From positions 3,909 through 13,413 of the forward strand of contig JABMDE010000005.1 of assembly GCA_015904055.1 (NCBI GenBank): a stretch of DNA of 9,505 bases, written 5' to 3'. Below are positions 1-9,505 of the stretch, piece after piece. Positions within the stretch are counted from its first letter, which is position 1. The number at the start of each line of letters is the position of its first letter. Made by a program: the position numbers and the translations under genes. This DNA is from Nitrospira sp. (GTDB taxonomy: Bacteria; Nitrospirota; Nitrospiria; Nitrospirales; Nitrospiraceae). A model generated the notes under the pieces. The model made no database searches, was not told the origin of the DNA, and worked only from the letters and a program-made list of their open reading frames with translations.

Positions 1-641
1 TATACGCATCGTCCAGCTCCGTCTACGGCGGCAATACCCACATGCCGTTTTCCATTCACGACAATGTGGACCACCCCGTCTCGCTCTATGCCGCCACGAA
101 GAAAGCCAACGAACTCATGGCCCACTGCTACGCACATTTGTATCGGATTCCCTGTACTGGATTGCGTTTTTTCACAGTCTACGGCCCGTGGGGCAGGCCT
201 GACATGGCGCTGTTCATTTTCACGAAGGCAATTTTGGAAGGCACGCCGATCGAGGTGTTCAATCACGGCAACATGCGACGCGATTTCACCTATGTGGATG
301 ATATCGTCGAGGGCATTATCCGGACCCTCGATCACCCGGCGACGGTCAATCCAGCCTGGTCAGGAGACAAGCCCGATCCCGGCACCAGTTCGGCACCGGC
401 CCGCGTCTACAATATCGGCAACCACCAACCGGTGGAACTCCTGCATTTCATCGGAGTATTGGAACAGGCACTCGGTAAGAAAGCAGAGAAGAAACTGATG
501 CCCTTGCAGCCGGGCGATGTGCCCGCCACCTACGCCGACATCGACGACCTCACACGCGATGTCGGATTCGCACCGGCCACGCCGATCGAAGAAGGCATTC
601 CTCGCTTCGTGAAGTGGTATCGAGAGTTTTATCAAGCCTGA
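1..641 (+). CDS. UDP-glucuronate 4-epimerase-like NAD-dependent sugar epimerase, 3' part (copy 1)
   Basis: This is the C-terminal 212 residues of an extended short-chain dehydrogenase/reductase sugar epimerase, cut at the left edge of the window. The first full codon is TAC at base 3, matching Tyr129 of the complete copy at 7016-8038. The serine-rich active-site strand ending SSSSVYG and the catalytic YAATK (Tyr-x3-Lys) are present, followed by the substrate-binding half with [15 protein letters not shown] and the [13 protein letters not shown] signature. The Rossmann GxxGxxG lies off the window. The protein differs from copy 2 in one residue (Gly for Glu at position 279), although 38 bases differ. 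The family interconverts UDP-glucuronate and UDP-galacturonate for surface polysaccharide in the cytosol. Exact substrate is inferred. It converges on the exported-protein gene, with 30 bp between stops. Confidence 0.9.
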
Positions 642-646
642 TAAAA
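627..646 (+). terminator. Perfect 8-bp hairpin over the epimerase stop codon (copy 1)
   Basis: TTTTATCA (627-634) and TGATAAAA (639-646) form a perfect 8-bp stem with an AGCC loop; the right arm contains the TGA stop. It lies between two convergent genes, where a bidirectional terminator would be useful, but it is AT-rich and has no clear T tract beyond the arm itself. In copy 2 (8024-8043) the stem is partly lost, surviving only with two wobble pairs and one mismatch. A terminator role is therefore tentative. Confidence 0.3.
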
Positions 647-671
647 ACCCGCCTTCTCCCTTGTGCGGAGC

Positions 672-1241
672 TTAGGGACATCCAATCGGAACAAACCCTC
701 TCCCGAAAATCTCCGACAACGTCACATAACGCGCGTTATCGTAGAAGGAGTGGCTCGCCCCGCGCTGATTGCGGCCGGAAAGGTCTCCGCCATATGACGG
801 GTCCGATCCGAACCACAGGCCCCCACGGGTTTTCTGAACCAGCTGAAGCCATTCCATATACAGTCCACACACTTCGCTTTGCACTGAGCCGGATCCAGTA
901 TTGCTTGCGTGCCAGTCCCGAGCCCAATCCGGGACATTGCGCCCTCCCGTTCCCGAAGATCGATCCTGGTAGGCAGGGACATCGTACTGCGGCGCGGCAA
1001 CTGGAGCCGGGCGGGGACCAGTCGGCATATTCTCCAGCGACGGAACAACCGACAACGGCCGTAGCATCATGGCTCGACAACCCGCCCGTTCCTTGTTGGT
1101 ATACACCGTGTCGCCGTCCGCCGTGAGGCATTCCAATACGCCTGTCGGTTCAGGAGCCGGCGGCGGAGTATCGGCTGACGCTGAACCGGAAACCATCGCC
1201 GCGAGTATGGACGCTGAAAAGGCCATCCGTATGAGCCTCAT
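672..1241 (-). CDS. Small exported protein of unknown function with four cysteines (copy 1)
   Basis: The product is a 189-residue protein that I cannot assign to a named family. The ATG at 1241 is chosen because a perfect GGAGGT lies 5 nt upstream (plus-strand 1247-1252). The frame stays open for 26 more codons, but that part has no signal character. Residues 1-23 form a Sec signal peptide (short basic start, hydrophobic core, SASA cleavage site before Asp24). A Pro/Ala-rich linker follows, then a segment at 37-55 with Cys38, a GDTVYTN motif and Cys55. This segment vaguely recalls the small DUF4124-type periplasmic module, though the match is weak. The C-terminal half (about 100-189) is rich in Trp, Tyr and Gly and holds Cys125 and Cys188; two disulfides are possible. 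It differs from copy 2 at 15 of 189 residues, far more than the neighbouring epimerase. Confidence 0.8.
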   Translation of the reverse strand: MRLIRMAFSASILAAMVSGSASADTPPPAPEPTGVLECLTADGDTVYTNKERAGCRAMMLRPLSVVPSLENMPTGPRPAPVAAPQYDVPAYQDRSSGTGGRNVPDWARDWHASNTGSGSVQSEVCGLYMEWLQLVQKTRGGLWFGSDPSYGGDLSGRNQRGASHSFYDNARYVTLSEIFGRGFVPIGCP

Positions 1242-1287
1242 GGGGCACCTCCGTAAAAATGTAGCGATGAGCCGCGCACAGGCTCTC
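1242..1287 (-). promoter_or_regulatory. Conserved leader of the exported-protein gene, with hairpin and strong ribosome binding site (copy 1)
   Basis: These 46 bp upstream of the ATG at 1241 are identical in both repeat copies, although the flanking intergenic DNA differs at about 15% of positions. Read on the minus strand the block holds a hairpin, GAGCC-TGTGCGC-GGCTC (plus 1269-1285, 5-bp stem, 7-nt loop), then an AT-rich stretch, then GGAGGT 5 nt before the start. A transcribed leader with a structured element is the simplest reading; what it responds to, if anything, is unknown. Copy 2 has it at 8639-8684. Confidence 0.45.
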
Positions 1288-1337
1288 TGATCATTCCGTC
1301 TTCGGTCACGCACACACACAACTTACGCAATGGGACT

Positions 1338-1388
1338 TCCAAGAGTCTATGCCACTTTGGGAGGGGGAAACCCAACTCCTGAGCCGGT
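1338..1388. promoter_or_regulatory. 51-bp invariant element in the divergent intergenic region (copy 1)
   Basis: The 355 bp between the exported-protein gene and the antiporter hold no gene. Within them this 51-bp block is unchanged between the repeat copies (8735-8785 in copy 2). It contains an inverted repeat, TTGGG and CCCAA separated by nine bases (about 1357-1375), followed by CTCCTGAGCCGGT. On the minus strand it includes TGGCAT followed by CTTGG, which recalls a sigma54 -24 element, but the -12 half is one base too far away and lacks the GC. It may be a promoter or operator for the exported-protein gene, whose start lies about 97 bp away, or for both genes. It does not match any riboswitch consensus I know. 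Confidence 0.4.
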
Positions 1389-1460
1389 CCTAAGAGATCC
1401 AGCCACCGATAATCATCTCGAACAGAAGCGTCCCACAGACTCGGAATTGAACGCTTTGCC

Positions 1461-1489
1461 TTGTTCACTTGAGTGCGATGAGGTATCCT
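1461..1489 (+). promoter_or_regulatory. Candidate sigma70 promoter of the antiporter gene (copy 1)
   Basis: TTGTTC (1461-1466) and TATCCT (1484-1489) are separated by 17 bp. Each box is only a moderate match to TTGACA/TATAAT. Support comes from copy 2 (8857-8885), where both boxes and the bases around them are unchanged while three of the 17 spacer bases differ. Transcription would start near 1496, leaving a leader of about 100 nt. The antiporter ATG has only a weak ribosome binding site (CAGG about 8 nt upstream). Confidence 0.35.
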
Positions 1490-1596
1490 CCACCCCATTC
1501 CGGATGAAATGGCGAGAATCGATCCGGCGCACAGATCGACACGCCCTTTCTCCTTGACGTGGTTCCGTTCAGGTTTTACCTCCCACAGGCCTCGCA

Positions 1597-2739
1597 ATGA
1601 ACGATAACGATGTTCTCAGCAACTTGCTGCTTATTTACACTGTCTCTATTGCGGTGGTGTTTCTTTTTCACCAGTTTCGCTTGCCCTCCATCGCCGGATT
1701 TCTCGTCGCCGGAGCCCTGATCGGTCCGCATGGATTCAACCTCATTTCAGACATCGGAACCGTACAAGTGCTCGCGGAAATCGGGATTGCCCTGCTGCTA
1801 TTCACCATCGGCATTGAGTTCTCGCTGGTCCAGCTTGCCTCACTGAAGCGGCTGCTCCTGGTCGCTGCACCGATTCAGGTCGGCGGGGTCATCGTCCTCG
1901 TGTGGCTCGGCGGCATCATCGCGGGGATACCGGGTCCGCAGGCGCTGTTCTGGGGCTTCCTGTTGTCACTCAGCAGCACAGCGATCGTATTGAAGGCGCT
2001 GGCGGCAAGCGGAGACAGCGATGCTCCGCACGGCCGCGCAACCATCGGCATCCTGATCTTCCAGGACCTCGCCGTCGTGCCTATGATCCTGCTGACGCCG
2101 ATTCTGGCCAGCCCCGGCGAGGACACGCTCTCATCCATCCTCTTACCCGTGGGAAAATCCGTGGTGCTCGTCGGCTGTATCATGGCGGCCGCCTGGTATG
2201 CAGCTCCGAAGGTGCTCGAATACATCGTCCGCAGCCGCAGCCGCGAGCTCTTTTTACTGACGATCATCGTCATCTGCCTCGGTATCGCATGGCTGACGTC
2301 AATAAGCGGGCTGTCGCTTGCATTGGGCGCTTTCATCGCCGGACTCGTCATTTCCGAGTCGGAGTATAGTCACCAAGCCATTGCGGAGGTCCTGCCGTTT
2401 CGAGACAGTTTTAACAGCCTGTTCTTCATCTCCATCGGCATTCTGATGGATTGGCGATCCCGAAGTCGTCACCGGCTTATTACTCGTGGTGCTGCTTCTG
2501 AAATTCCTCAGCGGTGCCGGTGCCGTGCTGGTCGCGTCCGTCCCTCCACGGGCGGCGGTCATGACCGGCGTCGCCCTGGCTCAAGTGGGCGAATTCAGCT
2601 TTGTACTGGCCCAGGTCGGCCAAGAACACGGGCTAGTGTCCGGCGCACCCTATCAAATATTCCTGGCGGTCTCCGTCTGCTCCATGATCATCACGCCGTT
2701 TCTCATGCAGCTGTCGCCACATCTCGCCCGGCACGTTGA
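1597..2739 (+). CDS. Antiporter 5' fragment: N-terminal membrane half (copy 1)
   Basis: This open frame begins at the same ATG as copy 2. Residues 1-285 are Na+/H+-exchanger-type membrane domain. Hydrophobic spans alternate with short loops, including AGFLVAGALIGPHGF (33-47), ALLLFTIGIEFSLVQL (65-80), STAIVLKAL (127-135) and the IFQDLAVVP segment (154-162) with Asp157 in a conserved transport helix. After residue 285 the frame is wrong: the last 95 residues are Arg/Gly/Ser-rich and hydrophilic, as expected of out-of-frame GC-rich DNA. As written the product is 380 residues, lacks the last membrane spans and the regulatory domain, and is unlikely to work. The first 171 residues differ from copy 2 at four positions (2, 4, 30 and 40), while 29 of 33 base changes are silent. 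The frameshift is therefore probably much younger than the duplication. Confidence 0.7.
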   Translation: MNDNDVLSNLLLIYTVSIAVVFLFHQFRLPSIAGFLVAGALIGPHGFNLISDIGTVQVLAEIGIALLLFTIGIEFSLVQLASLKRLLLVAAPIQVGGVIVLVWLGGIIAGIPGPQALFWGFLLSLSSTAIVLKALAASGDSDAPHGRATIGILIFQDLAVVPMILLTPILASPGEDTLSSILLPVGKSVVLVGCIMAAAWYAAPKVLEYIVRSRSRELFLLTIIVICLGIAWLTSISGLSLALGAFIAGLVISESEYSHQAIAEVLPFRDSFNSLFFISIGILMDWRSRSRHRLITRGAASEIPQRCRCRAGRVRPSTGGGHDRRRPGSSGRIQLCTGPGRPRTRASVRRTLSNIPGGLRLLHDHHAVSHAAVATSRPAR

Positions 2740-3592
2740 AGCCGTCCAGCGGCTCCGCCGATGGCTGCCTGGCCAAACGACGGCCCATGTGTTGGAAACA
2801 GAAGGACGGCACCTCCGTATCAAGGACCATGTGATCATCGTGGGATACGGGTTGAACGGCAGAAACCTGGCTCGCGTGCTGGGTGAAACGGAGGTGCCAT
2901 ACATCGCGTTGGATTTGGACGGCGATACGGTGCGCCGGGAAGCGCAGCACGGTTTGCCGCTCTACTACGGCGATGCCACGAACCCGCACGTACTCCGGCA
3001 TATGAAAATCGACGATGCCAGAGTCCTGGTGATCGCAATTTCCGATCCGTTCATGGCCCGCCGAACCGTCCAGGTGGCGCGTAGCCTGAATCCGAAAATT
3101 CATATTGTCGTCAGGACACGCTATCTGCGCGAGCTGGAAGAACTCCATCAACTCGGCGCCGACGATGTGGTGCCGGAAGAGTTTGAAACGTCGATCGAGA
3201 TTTTTGCGCTGGTACTGCGGACCTACAACATGCCGCAAGACTTCGTGATGCAGAAAGCCGAGCAGGTCCGGCGGGAAGGCTATGCGCTGTTGCGCCGGAG
3301 CGATCTACCCGAGTTAGCCCACCACCTTCGTGGCGGCACACTCAGCGATGTGGAAGTGGAGACCTGTCGGATCGAAGAAGACTCACCGGCAGCGGGGAAG
3401 ACCATTGATCAACTGTCCCTGCGGCCCCGAACCGGCACCTCGATCATTGCGTGGACCAGAAACGGCATCACAGAATCGAATCCTTCTGTGAAAACCACCC
3501 TTCTCCCCGGCGATATCATTGTCTTATTGGGAACACGCGATCAGATCAGGCGGGCAATGGGTCTGATTCTTTCCCGCGAAGCAGAACACTAG
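2486..3592 (+). CDS. Antiporter 3' fragment: last membrane spans, TrkA-N and TrkA-C domains (copy 1)
   Basis: This is the remainder of the antiporter in the +1 frame. Family sequence starts at about 2453, but the first possible start is an internal GTG at 2486 with no convincing ribosome binding site, so separate translation is doubtful. Of 368 residues from that GTG, about 1-80 hold the last membrane helices (ALAQVGEFSFVLAQVG is typical of CPA2 proteins). Residues about 112-235 form the TrkA-N/RCK Rossmann domain, with GYGLNG at 120-125 and an acidic residue after the second strand (LDLDGD), as expected for NAD(H) or adenine nucleotide binding. Residues about 286-360 form the TrkA-C domain ending LLPGDIIVLLGTRDQI. 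Such domains gate Kef/YbaL-type K+ efflux. The frame is well preserved over 1100 bp, so inactivation must be recent or a sequencing artefact. Confidence 0.7.
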   Translation: MVLLLKFLSGAGAVLVASVPPRAAVMTGVALAQVGEFSFVLAQVGQEHGLVSGAPYQIFLAVSVCSMIITPFLMQLSPHLARHVEAVQRLRRWLPGQTTAHVLETEGRHLRIKDHVIIVGYGLNGRNLARVLGETEVPYIALDLDGDTVRREAQHGLPLYYGDATNPHVLRHMKIDDARVLVIAISDPFMARRTVQVARSLNPKIHIVVRTRYLRELEELHQLGADDVVPEEFETSIEIFALVLRTYNMPQDFVMQKAEQVRREGYALLRRSDLPELAHHLRGGTLSDVEVETCRIEEDSPAAGKTIDQLSLRPRTGTSIIAWTRNGITESNPSVKTTLLPGDIIVLLGTRDQIRRAMGLILSREAEH

Positions 3593-3599
3593 CAGGCTG

Positions 3600-4682
3600 T
3601 CAGCTTCTCCACCGCAACGTCACCCGCTCTTTGAGAGGATGTTCCATCGGCTGCCCCGTCTGAACCGAGGCAAGGTGGGCGGCCTTCAGTTTGTAGTACC
3701 ACTTGGCCGGCATATCGGCATCGCCAAGAAACATCGACGAGGGTTTGTGACGAAGCCCCACGGCGAGATGCTTCATGGCGCGTTCATCCTGGCCCAGAAA
3801 CATCTTGGTGAGCGTGCGGAAAATCAGATTCCCGAATGGAAGCCAATGCAACCCGCGCCAATAGGCGGAGAAATCGATACGGCACTCCATGTCGGATATG
3901 GGCGTGGCCATCAACCGGTTGGCCATCCACACCCGCCCGCATTCCATGAGTTCGACGCGCTGATTCGGAAGTAGAAAGTCGATCGTGGTGCTCAATGGCC
4001 CTCCGTAGACACGCTCCAGCCAATGAAACGGGCCGCTGTTCTTGGCCGGCCGGTGCGCTGTCATCCGAAATCCATTGGGAATCGGCTCGAAGGTCTTCGC
4101 CTTTTCATGCATGCTTGCATCGCTGCGCCACCAGGAATGCACGTAGGGGCCATGGACCGGATCGATAAGGCCGATGACGCCGTCGTCTGCCGTACAGGTA
4201 TAAATCAGCGAAATGTGAAACGACTGTTTCGGCTCCGATGGCAGCGGCATGCGCGGAACCGGAGGCAACGAACCGGGGGCTCCACGATCGTCGGCAAGAT
4301 ACACCCAGATCATGCCGTCGGCTTCTTCAGCCGGATAACTGGCGATCCCGACTTTGTCGGTCTGAAGGGACGTCCCTTCGGGCAGCGCAGGGATACAGCG
4401 GCATCGGCCCTTCATATCGAACTGCCACCCGTGATACGAACATTCGATACGCTCGCCGTTAAATCGCCCGAATGACAACGGCATGCCACGGTGCGGGCAG
4501 ACATCGCGCATCGCTGCCAGCCGTCCCTCCCGGTCCCGACAGAGCACGATCGGAAGCCCCAACATCTGCAGCGCTTTCATCGAACCTGACCGCACGGTAT
4601 CGCTCGGCACAGCCGGGTACCAGAATCCAAAAAGCGGCGCGCTTCTGGCGGAGACAATATCAGGCGTGAGCAGTGTGTTCAT
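3600..4682 (-). CDS. Rieske [2Fe-2S] non-haem iron oxygenase
   Basis: The 360-residue product resembles the oxygenase (alpha) component of ring-hydroxylating and Pao/vanillate-demethylase-type enzymes. The Rieske cluster ligands are CPH (Cys62, His64) and CSYH (Cys81, His84), separated by 16 residues. The mononuclear iron site is probably Asp174-x2-His177-x4-His182, with a third acidic ligand near Asp299 (GQDERAMKH). An FWYPAV start motif lies at 20-25. I chose ATG 4682. A strong promoter at 4728-4756 lies just upstream, which rules out the longer open frame reaching 4886, although no clear ribosome binding site is visible. The enzyme would need a ferredoxin or reductase from elsewhere; none is encoded here. 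The substrate cannot be inferred. It is transcribed divergently from the DsrE2-TusA operon and convergently with the broken antiporter, 7 bp from its stop. Confidence 0.85.
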   Translation of the reverse strand: MNTLLTPDIVSARSAPLFGFWYPAVPSDTVRSGSMKALQMLGLPIVLCRDREGRLAAMRDVCPHRGMPLSFGRFNGERIECSYHGWQFDMKGRCRCIPALPEGTSLQTDKVGIASYPAEEADGMIWVYLADDRGAPGSLPPVPRMPLPSEPKQSFHISLIYTCTADDGVIGLIDPVHGPYVHSWWRSDASMHEKAKTFEPIPNGFRMTAHRPAKNSGPFHWLERVYGGPLSTTIDFLLPNQRVELMECGRVWMANRLMATPISDMECRIDFSAYWRGLHWLPFGNLIFRTLTKMFLGQDERAMKHLAVGLRHKPSSMFLGDADMPAKWYYKLKAAHLASVQTGQPMEHPLKERVTLRWRS

Positions 4683-4727
4683 GGACGAGGAAGGAAGCCC
4701 GAACGATGGGGCGCACCTACGAATGGG

Positions 4728-4756
4728 ACTATAGCGGCCGGATAAAGGAAGGTCAA
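4728..4756 (-). promoter_or_regulatory. Sigma70-type promoter of the Rieske oxygenase gene
   Basis: On the minus strand TTGACC (plus 4751-4756) and TATAGT (plus 4728-4733) are separated by exactly 17 bp, each matching five of six consensus bases. Transcription would start near 4721, leaving a leader of about 40 nt before the ATG at 4682. This is the best promoter match in the window. Confidence 0.65.
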
Positions 4757-4789
4757 GCAACGATAGCGCGGATGCCGCAGGCACATTCC

Positions 4790-4819
4790 TTGACACCCTC
4801 ACGAACCCCATACTATTCT
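4790..4819 (+). promoter_or_regulatory. Probable promoter of the DsrE2-TusA operon
   Basis: A perfect TTGACA (4790-4795) is followed by TACTAT (4811-4816, spacing 15) or TATTCT (4814-4819, spacing 18). Neither -10 box is ideal. Transcription from here would give a leader of about 45-50 nt before the ATG at 4872. The -35 boxes of this promoter and of the oxygenase promoter are 33 bp apart and face away from each other, so a shared regulator could bind between them. Confidence 0.5.
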
Positions 4820-4871
4820 GTTCACAAGTCCGGACAGGGCTGAATCTGTGAATGGGAAACGAGGCCACGCC

Positions 4872-5402
4872 ATGATCGCCACACAAATAGAGCCGACGAC
4901 GACGTTAGCGCAGCTCCAGGCTTCCAAACCGGATCGAGTGACCATCGTCCTCTTGAGCGGAGATCTGGACCGGGCCATGGCGGCCTTCATCATCGCGACC
5001 GGCGCGGCCGCGATGGGCATGCAGGTCACCGTGTTCTTTACCTTCTGGGGACTGAATACGATTCGCAAGAAGGGCGCTGCCAGTTCAGCGAAGGATTGGC
5101 TCCGCCGGATGTTCGGAGCGCTCAATAAAGGCGGCGCCGAGACGCTGCCGCTCTCACGATTTCATTTCGGCGGACTGGGCACTGCGATGATGCAGAAGGT
5201 GATGAAGCAGAATCGCATGCCGGGCGTCCCCGAATTGATGCACACCGCGCTGGATCTGGGCGTGCGATTCATCGCCTGTACGACCACGATGGGCCTCATG
5301 GGGATCACCAAGGACACGTTGATCGACGGCATCGATCAGTTCGCCGGAGTCACGACGTACCTGGCAGAAGCCAAGCACGGCAGCGTGAACCTCTTTATCT
5401 AA
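4872..5402 (+). CDS. DsrE/DsrF/DrsH-like (DsrE2 family) protein
   Basis: The 176-residue protein belongs to the DsrE2 branch of the DsrE/F/H family, often labelled peroxiredoxin-family. The ATG at 4872 is preferred because GAGG (4861-4864) lies 7 nt upstream; a GTG at 4848 would add eight residues. The core opens with a beta strand, VTIVLLSGDLDRAMAAF (23-39), followed by the family signature GAAAMGMQVTVFFTFWGL (44-61). A conserved single cysteine, Cys136 in FIACTTTMGLMGI, is the likely persulfide-carrying residue. The family exchanges sulfane sulfur with TusA in sulfur oxidation and sulfur-trafficking systems. A TusA gene follows 83 bp downstream, which supports that role here. Residues 64-117 are a mostly helical, basic insertion typical of DsrE2, some members of which are membrane-associated. 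No dsrAB, sHdr or rhodanese gene is seen in this window. Confidence 0.85.
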   Translation: MIATQIEPTTTLAQLQASKPDRVTIVLLSGDLDRAMAAFIIATGAAAMGMQVTVFFTFWGLNTIRKKGAASSAKDWLRRMFGALNKGGAETLPLSRFHFGGLGTAMMQKVMKQNRMPGVPELMHTALDLGVRFIACTTTMGLMGITKDTLIDGIDQFAGVTTYLAEAKHGSVNLFI

Positions 5403-5411
5403 AAGCAGGCT

Positions 5412-5470
5412 AAGGTCGAGGTCAAGGCTAAAAAGTTAGCCATACCCCTCCCAACCTCAACCTGAACCTT
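5412..5470. repeat. Inverted array of six-base units around a perfect hairpin
   Basis: The 83-bp gap between the DsrE2 and TusA genes holds three tandem units of form RAGGYY (5412-5429: AAGGTC, GAGGTC, AAGGCT). The complementary form appears on the other side (ACCTCAACCTGAACCTT, 5454-5470; read on the minus strand AAGGTT, CAGGTT, GAGGTT). In the centre GGCTAA (5426-5431), loop AAAG, and TTAGCC (5436-5441) form a perfect 6-bp stem. There is no T tract, so it is not an ordinary terminator. It could be an mRNA-stabilising or processing structure between two cotranscribed genes, or a dispersed intergenic repeat. Confidence 0.5.
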
Positions 5471-5485
5471 CAGGGAGTCATACTG

Positions 5486-5719
5486 ATGCAATCCGACATC
5501 AAGCTCGATACCCTGGGCTACTTCTGCCCCATGCCGATTATCCTCACGTCGAAGAAAATCAAAGAACTGACGTTGGGACAGATACTCGAAGTCGTCTCCG
5601 ACGACGAAGGCATCAAGAAAGACATGCCGGCTTGGTGCGAAACCACCGGCCATCAGATGGTGGGGATGGAAGAAGAGCAGGCGAAGTCAGGACTGATCCC
5701 ACCCGCTCGTCCACGGTGA
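5486..5719 (+). CDS. tusA: TusA/SirA-family sulfur carrier protein
   Basis: The 77-residue product has the full TusA fold length and signature: LDTLGYFCPMPIILTSKKI, with the CPxP motif at 14-17 and Cys14 as the persulfide-carrying residue. A second cysteine, Cys51, lies in the loop MPAWCETTGH, at the position where many family members have one. AGGGAG (5472-5477) stands 8 nt before the ATG. The stop overlaps the GTG of the next gene by four bases (GTGA), indicating translational coupling. TusA proteins pass sulfane sulfur between persulfide proteins in thio-modification of tRNA, cofactor synthesis or sulfur oxidation. With DsrE2 directly upstream the sulfur-relay role is well supported, but the final acceptor is not shown. 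The gene symbol denotes family, not proven orthology to E. coli tusA. Confidence 0.88.
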   Translation: MQSDIKLDTLGYFCPMPIILTSKKIKELTLGQILEVVSDDEGIKKDMPAWCETTGHQMVGMEEEQAKSGLIPPARPR

Positions 5720-6981
5720 CGAACGGCGGCCTTCGCATTTTTCATTCAGTCAAACGGCAAGCAATTCCCCTGGGATTCGACCAGCGCCCCCTGGGACCAA
5801 TGGTGGGAACCCTGCTCGGCATGTTAGACGGCACACGCCAGACTGACGAGATCAGGACAGTCGTAGAGACCGCCCCGCGCGAAGCCAGAACGACGCTCAC
5901 CCGGCTGATGGAATTGCTGATTCAGCATGAGTGCCTTCTCAGTTCGCCCAAGACCTCGATCCGGCCACACTGGCTCGAATCCATACAGGACCGGGATATG
6001 GTGCATCTCGGCCACGCGGCGCTGCTCTATCGGCAACTGGACAACTTTTTCCTCTTCGACCCCTGGCTGCTCCCGTGGTTCGCCGAATCCTCCCTCCCTT
6101 CCCTGTGGGGCTCGCTCTTGCCCAAGCCATCGGCCGTGTTCTTAACGCACGATCACGACGATCATGTCGATCCTCGCACACTGCTCCACTTGCCAAAAGA
6201 CACGCCGATCATCGTACCCAGCCGGCGCAACCGGAAGACGTTCTTTTACGATTATCTACCGCTCCTACGGGAACTCGGATTTGGCCGCGTGGTTGAACTG
6301 GCGCATGGCGAGAGTTGGCCGTTCGAAGGCGGGACCATCGTCTCCGTGCCGTTCTACGGTGAGGACCCCTGCGATCTACAGATGCCGAGAAACTGCTACT
6401 TGATCAGCGACCGGGGCTACAACGTCCTCGTCCATGCGGACAGCGGGCCGGCCAACGACGGACGATCACCGCTGAAAGACGGCATCATCGCGCAACTGAC
6501 CGACAAATACGGTCCGATCCGGCTGGTGTTCGCATCGCAACAACAATTGCTCGAACTCCGAAGCCACACCGCCCATGCGCCCTTGTCTCATCCTGGCAAA
6601 TGGCTGGAGGTGGGTGAGAACGGCTATCTCACCAACGCCTATCTGGACGACCTATGCCAGGCGGCGCACGCGACTCTGTTCGTATCCTACGCCACCGGCG
6701 GCGCCGACTGGTACCCGGACCATTTGTCGTTCATGTTCAGCCGGCGAAACCCTGCGCGCACCGCGCTGCTCACAGCCCGGTGGGAGCGTCCAGAAACACT
6801 AAAAGACCTTCTCTCCCTGCACAATTGCGGGTATCATTGCTCGCGGGCGCTGGATCTGTATCGATCAACCAGCGATGCGCGTATCGAGGTCATCTCCACG
6901 GGCGACGCGCTGACCCCGTTGAGTCTCCACCGGCTGGATCACGGCGATCCGCCGTTCATGACAACAAGCCGGCACGTGTAG
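5716..6981 (+). CDS. Metallo-beta-lactamase-fold hydrolase (UlaG-like) with N-terminal helical domain
   Basis: The 421-residue protein is cytosolic. Residues about 18-76 ([21 protein letters not shown]...) form a helical domain similar in pattern to PqqD-like or winged-helix modules. Residues 95-350 are metallo-beta-lactamase fold: [10 protein letters not shown] (95-104), FLFDPWL, then the metal-binding THDHDDH (144-150; His145, His147, Asp149, His150), His240 with Asp242 in VHADSG, and a late [16 protein letters not shown] segment. The GHA and DPWL motifs place it with UlaG/RomA-type hydrolases. I use the GTG at 5716, which overlaps the tusA stop as GTGA. The frame is open to an ATG at 5632, but that would overlap tusA by 88 bases. 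No ribosome binding site is visible, consistent with coupling. The reaction is unknown; coexpression with sulfur carriers makes a sulfur-related or modified-peptide substrate possible, but this is inference. Confidence 0.8.
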
Positions 6982-7015
6982 CCGGATTGTCATCGCAACG
7001 TTGAAAGGACCACAC

Positions 7016-8038
7016 ATGAGCGGGCCATCTTCTCCCATCTTGGTCACGGGGTCGGCGGGCTTTATCGGATTTCATGTGGCCCGGCGTCTGTTGGATCGCG
7101 GCGATGCTGTCATCGGCCTCGACAATCTCAACGACTACTACGACGTCCGGCTGAAAGAAGCACGCCTGGCCCAACTGACCGCTCACAAGGGATTCCGCTT
7201 CATCAAGCTGGATCTGGCCAATCGACAGGGCATGCGGGATCTCTTTGCCGACGAACCGATTCAGCGAGTGGTCCATCTGGCCGCACAAGCCGGTGTACGC
7301 TATTCACTCGTGAATCCTCACGCCTATACCGAAAGCAATCTCGAAGGCTTCATGAATATTCTGGAAGGCTGCCGCCATAGCCACGTCGCGCATCTGGTGT
7401 ACGCATCGTCCAGCTCCGTCTACGGCGGCAACACCCACATGCCGTTTTCCATCCACGACAATGTGGACCACCCCGTCTCGCTCTACGCCGCCACGAAGAA
7501 AGCCAATGAACTCATGGCCCACTGCTATGCACATTTGTATCGGATTCCCTGCACAGGTTTGCGATTTTTCACAGTCTACGGCCCGTGGGGCAGGCCTGAC
7601 ATGGCGCTGTTCATCTTCACGAAGGCGATTTTGGAAGGAACGCCGATCGAGGTATTCAATCACGGCAACATGCGGCGTGATTTTACCTATGTGGATGATA
7701 TCGTCGAGGGCATCATCCGAACCCTCGATCATCCGGCGACGGTCAATCCAGCCTGGTCAGGAGACAAGCCGGACCCCGGCACCAGTTCGGCACCGGCCCG
7801 CGTCTACAACATCGGCAACCACCAACCGGTGGAGCTGCTACACTTCATCGAGGTATTGGAACAGGCGCTCGGCAAGAAGGCAGAGAAGAAGCTGATGCCG
7901 TTGCAGCCGGGCGATGTGCCTGCCACCTACGCCGACATCGACGACCTCACACGCGATGTCGGATTCGCACCAGCCACGCCGATTGAAGAAGGCATTCCTC
8001 GCTTCGTGAAGTGGTATCGAGAGTTTTACCAAGCCTGA
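7016..8038 (+). CDS. UDP-glucuronate 4-epimerase-like NAD-dependent sugar epimerase (copy 2, complete)
   Basis: This 340-residue extended SDR is complete. ATG 7016 is chosen for the GAAAGGA at 7003-7009, 6 nt upstream; an in-frame TTG at 7001 overlaps that site. Residues 9-20 ([12 protein letters not shown]) hold the NAD-binding GxxGxx[20 protein letters not shown] (36-54) is highly typical of UDP-glucuronate epimerases. The active site has the serine run 131-134 and Tyr157-x3-Lys161. The C-terminal half has [14 protein letters not shown] (184-197) and RRDFTYVDD (220-228). It probably converts UDP-glucuronate to UDP-galacturonate for capsule, lipopolysaccharide or exopolysaccharide. It follows the hydrolase gene by 34 bp with no obvious promoter and may be cotranscribed with the sulfur genes. 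A 5-epimerase activity (lspL-type naming) is an alternative. Confidence 0.92.
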
Positions 8039-8068
8039 TAGAGACCAGCCTTCTCCCTTGTGGAAACC

Positions 8069-8638
8069 CTACGGACATCCAATCGGTATAAACCCTCTCC
8101 CGAAGATATCCGACAGGGTCACATAGCGCGCGTTATCGTAGAAGGAGTGGCTCGCCCCACGCTGATTGCGGCCGGAAAGGTCTCCGCCATACGACGGGTC
8201 AGATCCGAACCACAAGCCCCCACGGGTTTTCTGAACCAGCTGAAGCCATTCCATATACAGTCCACACACTTCGCCTTGCACTGAGCCGGAGGCTGTATTG
8301 CTTGCGTGCCAATCCCGAGCCCAATCCGGGACATTGCGCCCGCCCGTACCCGATGGTCGATCCTGGTAGGCCGGGACGTCGTAATGCGGTGCGGCAACTG
8401 GAGCGGGACGGGGAACAGTCGGCATATTCTCCAGCGACGGCACAACCGACAACGGCCTCAACATCATGACTCGACAACCCGCCCGTTCCTTGTTGGTATA
8501 GATCGTGTCGCCATCCGCCGTGAGGCATTCCCATACGCCTGTCGGTTCAGGAGCCGGCGGCGGAGTATCGGCTGATGCTGAACCAGACACCATTGCCACG
8601 AGCATGGATACTGAAAACATCATCTGTATGAGCCTCAT
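8069..8638 (-). CDS. Small exported protein of unknown function with four cysteines (copy 2)
   Basis: This is the second 189-residue member of the pair, with the same start context (GGAGGT at plus 8644-8649, 5 nt before the ATG). It has the same signal peptide layout (MRLIQMMFSVSMLVAMVSGSASA, then Asp24), and all four cysteines (38, 55, 125, 188) are retained. The 15 substitutions relative to copy 1 cluster in the signal peptide (five changes, all but one hydrophobic), the Pro-rich linker (such as Gly75 to Val, Gln85 to His) and positions 36, 46 and 57. Residues 123-176 are identical. The pattern is that of a functional exported protein with a conserved C-terminal domain and a relaxed N-terminal part. 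Its 3' end lies 30 bp from the convergent epimerase stop. Function unknown. Confidence 0.8.
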   Translation of the reverse strand: MRLIQMMFSVSMLVAMVSGSASADTPPPAPEPTGVWECLTADGDTIYTNKERAGCRVMMLRPLSVVPSLENMPTVPRPAPVAAPHYDVPAYQDRPSGTGGRNVPDWARDWHASNTASGSVQGEVCGLYMEWLQLVQKTRGGLWFGSDPSYGGDLSGRNQRGASHSFYDNARYVTLSDIFGRGFIPIGCP

Positions 8639-8684
8639 GGGGCACCTCCGTAAAAATGTAGCGATGAGCCGCGCACAGGCTCTC
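8639..8684 (-). promoter_or_regulatory. Conserved leader with hairpin and strong ribosome binding site (copy 2)
   Basis: This is identical to plus-strand 1242-1287. The GAGCC/GGCTC hairpin is at 8666-8682 and the ribosome binding site at 8644-8649. Confidence 0.45.
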
Positions 8685-8734
8685 CGGTCATTCCGTCCTC
8701 GTCCACGCGCACGCACAACTTACGCAATGGGACG

Positions 8735-8785
8735 TCCAAGAGTCTATGCCACTTTGGGAGGGGGAAACCCAACTCCTGAGCCGGT
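8735..8785. promoter_or_regulatory. 51-bp invariant element in the divergent intergenic region (copy 2)
   Basis: This is identical to 1338-1388. The rest of the 354-bp gene-free stretch 8639-8992 holds the leader block, this element and the weak antiporter promoter at 8857-8885. I see nothing else of note there. Confidence 0.4.
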
Positions 8786-8856
8786 TCCAAGAGATCCGGC
8801 CACCGGCAATCATCCGAACAGGGGCGTGCCGCAGGATCGGAACTGAACGCTTTACC

Positions 8857-8885
8857 TTGTTCACTTGCGGGCAATGAGGTATCCT
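8857..8885 (+). promoter_or_regulatory. Candidate sigma70 promoter of the antiporter gene (copy 2)
   Basis: TTGTTC (8857-8862) and TATCCT (8880-8885) are 17 bp apart, with both boxes identical to copy 1 and three spacer differences. The match to consensus is moderate. Confidence 0.35.
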
Positions 8886-8992
8886 CCACCCCATTCCAGG
8901 TGAAATGGTGAGAATCGATCCAGCTCGCGGATCGGAACTCCCTTTCTCCTTCATGTGGTTCCATTCAGGCGTTACCTCCCACAGGCCTCGCA

Positions 8993-9505
8993 ATGACCGA
9001 TACCGATGTCCTCAGCAACTTGCTGCTTATTTACACCGTCTCCATCGCGGTCGTGTTTCTCTTTCACCAGTTTCGCTTGTCCTCCATCGCCGGGTTTCTC
9101 GTCGCCGGATCCTTGATCGGACCGCATGGGTTCAACCTCATTTCAGACATCGGCACCGTGCAAGTGCTCGCGGAAATCGGGATTGCCCTATTGTTATTCA
9201 CCATCGGCATCGAGTTCTCGCTGGTCCAGCTCGCCTCACTGAAGCGGCTGCTCTTAGTCGCCGCACCGATTCAGGTCGGCGGTGTCATCGTCCTCGTGTG
9301 GCTCGGCGGCATCATCGCGGGAATACCGGGCCCGCAGGCGCTGTTCTGGGGCTTCCTGTTATCACTCAGCAGCACTGCGATCGTATTGAAGGCGCTGGCA
9401 GCAAGTGGAGACAGCGATGCGCCGCACGGCCGCGCAACCATCGGCATCCTGATCTTCCAGGACCTCGCCGTCGTGCCCATGATCCTGCTGACGCCGATTC
9501 TGGCC
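8993..9505 (+). CDS. Kef-type (CPA2) K+/H+ antiporter, 5' part (copy 2)
   Basis: The first 171 codons of the second antiporter run off the right edge of the window with the frame open. The protein starts MTDTDVLSNLLLIYTVSIAV and has the same membrane spans as copy 1, including GSLIGPHGF, LLLFTIGIEF and IFQDLAVVP with Asp157. Four residues differ from copy 1 (Thr2, Thr4, Ser30, Ser40) and 29 of 33 base changes are silent, so this copy has been under purifying selection. The family exchanges K+ or Na+ for H+ across the inner membrane under control of a C-terminal nucleotide-binding domain. Whether this copy is intact at the site where copy 1 is broken cannot be seen, because that site would lie about 340 bp beyond the window. 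Confidence 0.88.
   Translation, partial: MTDTDVLSNLLLIYTVSIAVVFLFHQFRLSSIAGFLVAGSLIGPHGFNLISDIGTVQVLAEIGIALLLFTIGIEFSLVQLASLKRLLLVAAPIQVGGVIVLVWLGGIIAGIPGPQALFWGFLLSLSSTAIVLKALAASGDSDAPHGRATIGILIFQDLAVVPMILLTPILA

Follow-up and report, generated by a model that had tools for sequence, protein, structure and literature searches.

Two diverged head-to-tail copies of a seven-gene Nitrospira block, most likely separate single copies that were joined late

How do two copies of the same genes, 8% different from each other, come to lie head to tail in one Nitrospira contig? The question is raised by a stretch of 9505 bases (G+C 58%, zero N) taken from contig JABMDE010000005.1 of the Nitrospira sp. 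assembly GCA_015904055.1 (positions 3,909 to 13,413), hereafter the window, whose two ends carry the same genes in the same order. The repeat unit is a whole block of seven genes, encoding a metallo-beta-lactamase (MBL)-fold protein, a nucleotide-sugar epimerase/dehydratase, an exported protein, a cation:proton antiporter, a Rieske oxygenase, a DsrE2 family protein and TusA, and two such units meet at base 5691. As judged from the sequence, the most likely history is that each copy evolved alone in a lineage of its own and that the two came together late. As for where they met, we put the chances about level that it was in the contig and not in one chromosome, i.e. that the window is a strain-mixed contig built over a young joint.

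The repeat itself is far above chance. Self-BLAST aligns bases 3-2109 with 7400-9505 with 1940 of 2107 columns identical (92.07%), 166 mismatches, one gap and E = 0, in full agreement with the diverged direct repeat of about 92% identity and one single-base indel described in the initial annotation; the offset is 7397 up to that indel and 7396 beyond it. Copy 1 (1..2109) is truncated on the left and copy 2 (7398..9505) on the right by the limits of the window; the visible repeat ends are those of the window, and 2.1 kb is a minimum for the repeat length. The N-terminal part of the copy-1 epimerase thus falls outside. No intact antiporter is visible, that of copy 1 being frameshifted and that of copy 2 leaving the window. 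Most differences between the copies fall at third codon positions, i.e. 36 of 37 in the epimerase, 32 of 49 in the exported protein and 25 of 33 in the antiporter start, and this bias, together with the single indel in 2107 columns, led us to reject the idea of one circular molecule read twice with sequencing errors.

The joint between the repeat units was located through two BLAST matches to L003, a Nitrospira metagenome-assembled genome (MAG), which abut at window base 5691 while the corresponding places in L003 are 8.08 kb apart. It is head to tail and in direct orientation, and it puts the end of one block, at tusA codon 69, onto the interior of the MBL gene of the next, at about native residue 113. 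In the TusA gene (5486..5719, plus strand, PF01206) the last 11 native residues, known from the native ends in L003, L092, L093 and L017, are gone and 8 new ones from MBL-gene DNA stand in their place, and the MBL gene has lost about its first 113 residues. The parents have only about 1 bp in common at this point, hence the joint was formed without homology. The unit of three genes proposed earlier thus becomes one of seven, with a joint that cuts two genes and that the initial annotation did not contain. Since the overlap is about 1 bp and not a k-mer, misassembly through k-mers is rejected as the sole source of the joint; strain mixing alone cannot explain it, and a real or a chimeric molecule must supply it.

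The joint was searched for in 79 genomes of the genus of L003, with bases 5486-5949 as the query and at most eight scored candidates in each. Of the 79, 76 match this query, and in none is the joint spanned by more than 8 bases. Among them the nearest two are fragmentary; of these, G001 has an intact MBL start and G002 a native TusA end. A 23-base pattern across the joint is present in no viral contig, and the novel TusA tail in none of 240 proteins (120 listed of 740 MBL relatives and 120 listed of 411 TusA relatives), a weak result as cluster representatives can hide members.

In the relatives examined the block is unrepeated. Scanning genome contigs for the Rieske protein gave 93 relatives, the best 80 of which were kept and correspond to 78 distinct loci. 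At least one of the epimerase, the antiporter start or TusA is present in 62 of the 78, and 40 carry six block genes (the exported protein aside) in a single order throughout, MBL > epimerase > antiporter > Rieske > DsrE2 > TusA, with the exported protein also found between epimerase and antiporter in 35 of these 40. At the thresholds used, none of the 78 loci has any block gene twice, and no MBL hit lies beyond TusA in the 48 loci having at least 2 kb of sequence past that gene. Likewise, a query with bases 7016-8992, limited to three scored candidates in each genome, was matched in 76 of the 79 Nitrospira genomes and had a second full match in none; where matches overlapped, the largest values were about 125 bases (on a second G060 contig) and 73 bases (in G004). 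In L003 itself, the 21 kb examined of a contig of 72 kb contain the block once, and its genome gave no other copy. The ancestral state is a single copy. The order of the seven genes is, as an observation in its own right, conserved across Nitrospira.

The nearest relatives of the window are Nitrospira MAGs, with a top value of 96% for the Rieske protein against L001, and the distance between the copies can be read on the scale that L001 and L003, MAGs of two other species, provide. In the epimerase 37 of 636 bases and 1 of 212 amino acids differ between the copies (dN/dS 0.007, the ratio of nonsynonymous to synonymous divergence, with a dS of 0.30), in the exported protein there are 49 base differences with 176 of 191 positions identical (dN/dS 0.15, dS 0.27), and in the antiporter start 33 base differences (dN/dS 0.043, dS 0.25). 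The corresponding dS values to L001, which covers only parts of the epimerase and the exported protein, are 0.36, 0.35 and 0.23 for copy 1 and 0.29, 0.26 and 0.15 for copy 2; to L003 they are 0.26, 0.39 and 0.41 for copy 1 and 0.27, 0.26 and 0.36 for copy 2. The dS between the copies (0.25-0.30) hence lies within the range of that to the two other species, and the two segments stand at a strain- or species-like distance. The epimerase of L003 is 94.4% identical to each copy, the copies being 94.2% identical to each other, and in the antiporter copy 2 is nearer to L001 (95.1%) than to copy 1. In columns with all four sequences the two-two site patterns form a star (13 uniting copy 1 with copy 2, 14 copy 1 with L003 and 9 copy 1 with L001), and the DNA tree leaves the four without a resolved order. 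Short of proof, we read the copies as derived from closely related populations that evolved apart.

The gene cut by the joint suggests when the joining took place. In the window the MBL gene (5716..6981, plus strand) is an open reading frame (ORF) of 421 amino acids from a GTG that corresponds to a Val codon within the L003 gene, or of 449 from an upstream TTG in tusA DNA, compared with a native ORF of 542 in L003. The lost part does not look dispensable, since an alignment of 40 relatives, out of the 120 listed for the MBL protein, has 34 invariant residues ahead of position 113, and of these 120 (from 740 relatives in all) 118 are at least 500 residues long, the exceptions being one of 428 called partial and one of 463 on a 1496-base contig. 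Nevertheless the truncated gene shows no decay. Its dN/dS to L003 is 0.115; nine pairings of intact relatives were calculated for comparison, and those six whose dS stays below 1.1 range over 0.076-0.146 (L004, also tried for this comparison, gave no full match). Polarised amino-acid changes number 6 on the truncated side and 3 on the L003 side, and in the MBL protein tree the end branch of the truncated gene is 0.024, the median being 0.021. When neutral evolution was simulated for half of the copies' dS (0.135; 1000 runs), a mean of 100 amino-acid changes accumulated and only 1.6% of the runs were free of stops; with the time cut to a quarter, 6% of the runs stayed free of stops with no more than 22 changes. 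The observed gene has 22 differences from L003, both sides taken together, and no stop. Lacking decay, the gene would have been cut only after most of the divergence between the copies had built up, unless its short form is functional.

With respect to its nature, this protein, which had been called a hydrolase, appears to resemble CmlA and FrsH, i.e. non-heme diiron oxygenases with an MBL fold, more than a plain hydrolase. The phmmer match of the intact relative P0005 has E 2e-8 over residues 201-396, and an HDHDDH motif is invariant in the 40 aligned relatives. Foldseek places 4jo0 and 8a90 on top for the predicted model of an intact protein (more than 500 columns, TM 0.39-0.40), a model with a mean pLDDT of 59.7 and a poor N-terminus, which gives no indication of the lost part forming a domain of its own or not.

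A second lesion affects the antiporter of copy 1, whose frame is shifted by a 14-bp deletion after base 2456 (2456..2457, plus strand). The deletion is absent from L001, L003, L017, L026, L033 and L041 in a MAFFT alignment, and L002, left out of it by a length filter, shows the same length excess in its match. The affinity to L001 along the contig is fairly even, and the longest exact run to it, of 120 bases, ends at this deletion, which may mark a strain switch; the coincidence is suggestive only, and L003 also has a run of 113 bases.

How, then, could the two copies have met? The explanation we favour starts from one single-copy Nitrospira locus present in two strains or sister species, which would have supplied the two copies. 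One strain would have contributed the molecule joining the tusA end to the MBL interior, more likely through a young tandem duplication in that strain than through a chimeric library molecule, and the assembly would have passed between this strain and its relative through common sequence somewhere in 2110-7397. That the joining was late, and that it took place in the assembly, we infer. A strain-mixed contig is favoured because strain mixing is common, chimeric contigs arising from related strains having been described in a review (PMC7299287), and because the parts of the copies in view have exact stretches in common, the longest of 59 bases. Within the window 404 31-mer positions and 24 55-mer positions recur, and no 77-mer does, so that an assembly at short k could switch between such strains. 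The initial annotation had asked that a join of two strain variants be excluded first; it is this alternative that now fits better, given the star of 13, 14 and 9 sites and a dS like that to L001 and L003.

Several observations weigh against it. The joint still requires a molecule, and a random library chimera rarely picks the same locus head to tail. In the middle part of the repeat L003 is 86.5 and 89.3% identical to the copies, which are 90.0% identical to each other, and in the antiporter the values are 89.1 and 89.5% against 93.6% between the copies. A DNA tree with the copies constrained as sisters is not rejected (p-AU 0.22, from the approximately unbiased test), and the exported-protein tree, built from the copies, 25 of 120 listed metagenomic relatives and L003 with L001 left out, unites both copies at 95/90. 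Along the visible 2.1 kb no signature of a strain switch or crossover was seen, shuffles with runs as few as those observed amounting to 253 of 2000 for L003 and 707 of 2000 for L001; this result rests on L003 and L001, with no close parents to compare. Finally, the dN/dS of the truncated MBL gene to L091 (0.18, over 94 codons) lies above the range of intact pairs.

The strongest rival is that the duplication is real and that a Nitrospira cell acquired DNA of a sister species and retained it beside its own locus, the copies having diverged before they met, which we consider possible but doubtful. The ends of the donor fragment would have been joined, tusA end to MBL interior, in a circle entering by one homologous crossover; alternatively, one end would have paired by homology and the other been joined illegitimately. 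Such a merodiploid accounts together for a joint that is nearly blunt and absent from the searched genomes, for copies as far apart as species and for a truncated MBL gene without decay. It has a similar laboratory outcome in Escherichia coli conjugation (PMC3240628) and tandem-duplication merodiploids from transformation in Streptococcus pneumoniae (PMC3784515) on its side. However, homology-facilitated illegitimate recombination is rare (3e-10 per recipient in E. coli), and the joints of competent species, mostly with 3-10 bp of homology and with deletion, fit less well (both from PMC3240628). The event would also have to be caught fresh and abundant enough for assembly, and the visible 2.1 kb does not show the copies exchanging their affinities at a crossover, though there is no close parent to reveal such an exchange. 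That the window shows a natural inter-species merodiploid soon after its formation, i.e. one chromosome with tandem seven-gene blocks of sister species 8% apart, a fresh joint and one antiporter already broken, is by itself an unlikely picture.

An old tandem duplication within one lineage, both copies being retained under selection while they diverged by 8%, was the other alternative put forward initially, and we regard it as quite improbable. It draws on the epimerase copies, which differ almost only at third positions and in a single amino acid, as well as on the exported-protein tree and on the sister copies left unrejected by the DNA tree. Constraint on both copies does hold, as the epimerase dN/dS of 0.007 indicates, yet it is also expected if each copy evolved alone in its own lineage. 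Long-lasting selection on the two copies is disfavoured by the frameshifted antiporter of copy 1 and by an MBL gene that was cut by the joint and has not decayed, though the lost part includes 34 invariant residues and full length is the rule; moreover L003, whose epimerase is 94% identical to that of either copy, shows just one copy.

A purely technical chimera of two molecules, by ligation or amplification and with no strain duplicated, which is a sub-case counted within the explanation we favour, would suit the near-blunt joint cutting two genes, the second lesion, which this contig carries where the exact L001 match stops, and the absence of the joint from all 79 genomes and from viral contigs, but it is very improbable, as the partner must be the same locus, on the same strand, from a sister strain, unless the sample was almost only Nitrospira. 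A phage or plasmid origin of the window was rejected, with no megablast match to plasmids; four phage records carry an epimerase gene (three with 67% DNA identity over 89% of the gene, one with 69% over 15%), and eight epimerase loci in viral contigs reach 42-67% identity. The three records at 67% are Aphanizomenon and Planktothrix phages.

The remaining genes complete the two units. Copy 1 opens with the C-terminal 212 codons of the epimerase (3..641, plus strand, PF01370 and PF16363), followed by the exported protein of 189 amino acids (672..1241, minus strand), the 5' part of the CPA2-type antiporter before the frameshift (1597..2456, plus strand, PF00999; best NCBIfam match TIGR00932, under its cut-off for that fragment) and its 3' part in the shifted frame (2486..3592, plus strand, TrkA-N and TrkA-C, PF02254 and PF02080). 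The Rieske oxygenase (3600..4682, minus strand, PF00355) and the DsrE2 family protein (4872..5402, plus strand, PF13686) lead to TusA. Beyond the joint and the MBL gene come the complete epimerase of copy 2 (7016..8038, plus strand, PF01370), the second exported protein (8069..8638, minus strand) and the first 171 codons of the second antiporter, cut by the window end (8993..9505, plus strand). Epimerase copy 2 matches the solved structure 5u4q, named dTDP-glucose 4,6-dehydratase, with E 1e-146. The exported protein has no Pfam match in either copy and no NCBIfam match in copy 2; it has 597 relatives at E <=1e-40, and those named by organism among the 120 listed are Nitrospira or Nitrospiraceae.

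If the arrangement is real, it would illustrate how uncultured nitrifiers can gain, by a single event, an additional gene block that had diverged beforehand, and it would offer a fresh joint for study. If strains are mixed, which is more likely, the window offers a worked example of testing a metagenomic "diverged tandem duplication" without reads, by locating the joint, identifying the genes that it cuts and comparing their decay with the divergence of the copies.

Tandem duplication with a joint of short or no homology is a general class of bacterial rearrangement, and new tandem duplications have identical copies. The window is like this class in its head-to-tail units, its novel end-to-start joint inside genes and the single copy in relatives, and unlike new members of it in that its copies are 8% different. 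Among the papers that a literature search for divergent copies listed, none is, by title and start of abstract, on a comparable bacterial case, and a search for tandem duplication in Nitrospira metagenomes gave none. Comparable in outcome are merodiploids formed by homology-facilitated illegitimate recombination or by a single crossover of a circularised fragment, which would yield diverged tandem copies and an illegitimate joint of 0-1 nt (PMC3240628; PMC3784515). In E. coli conjugation the duplication product was present in 56 of 60 clones screened by PCR, 14 of which were sequenced, a single crossover of a circular molecule lacking part of the homologous segment being the explanation its authors gave, and of the four homology-facilitated illegitimate joints tabulated there, three had no homology and one had 1 nt (PMC3240628). 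The merodiploids obtained by transformation in S. pneumoniae span about 100-900 kb and arise through repeats (PMC3784515). The window joint of about 1 bp is unlike those of competent species, where 3-10 bp prevail (PMC3240628). With strain-chimeric metagenome contigs (PMC7299287) the window has in common parts at species-like distance within one contig and exact words up to 59 bases; it departs from them at the joint, since a switch at homologous words preserves gene order and does not create the fusion of tusA with the MBL gene.

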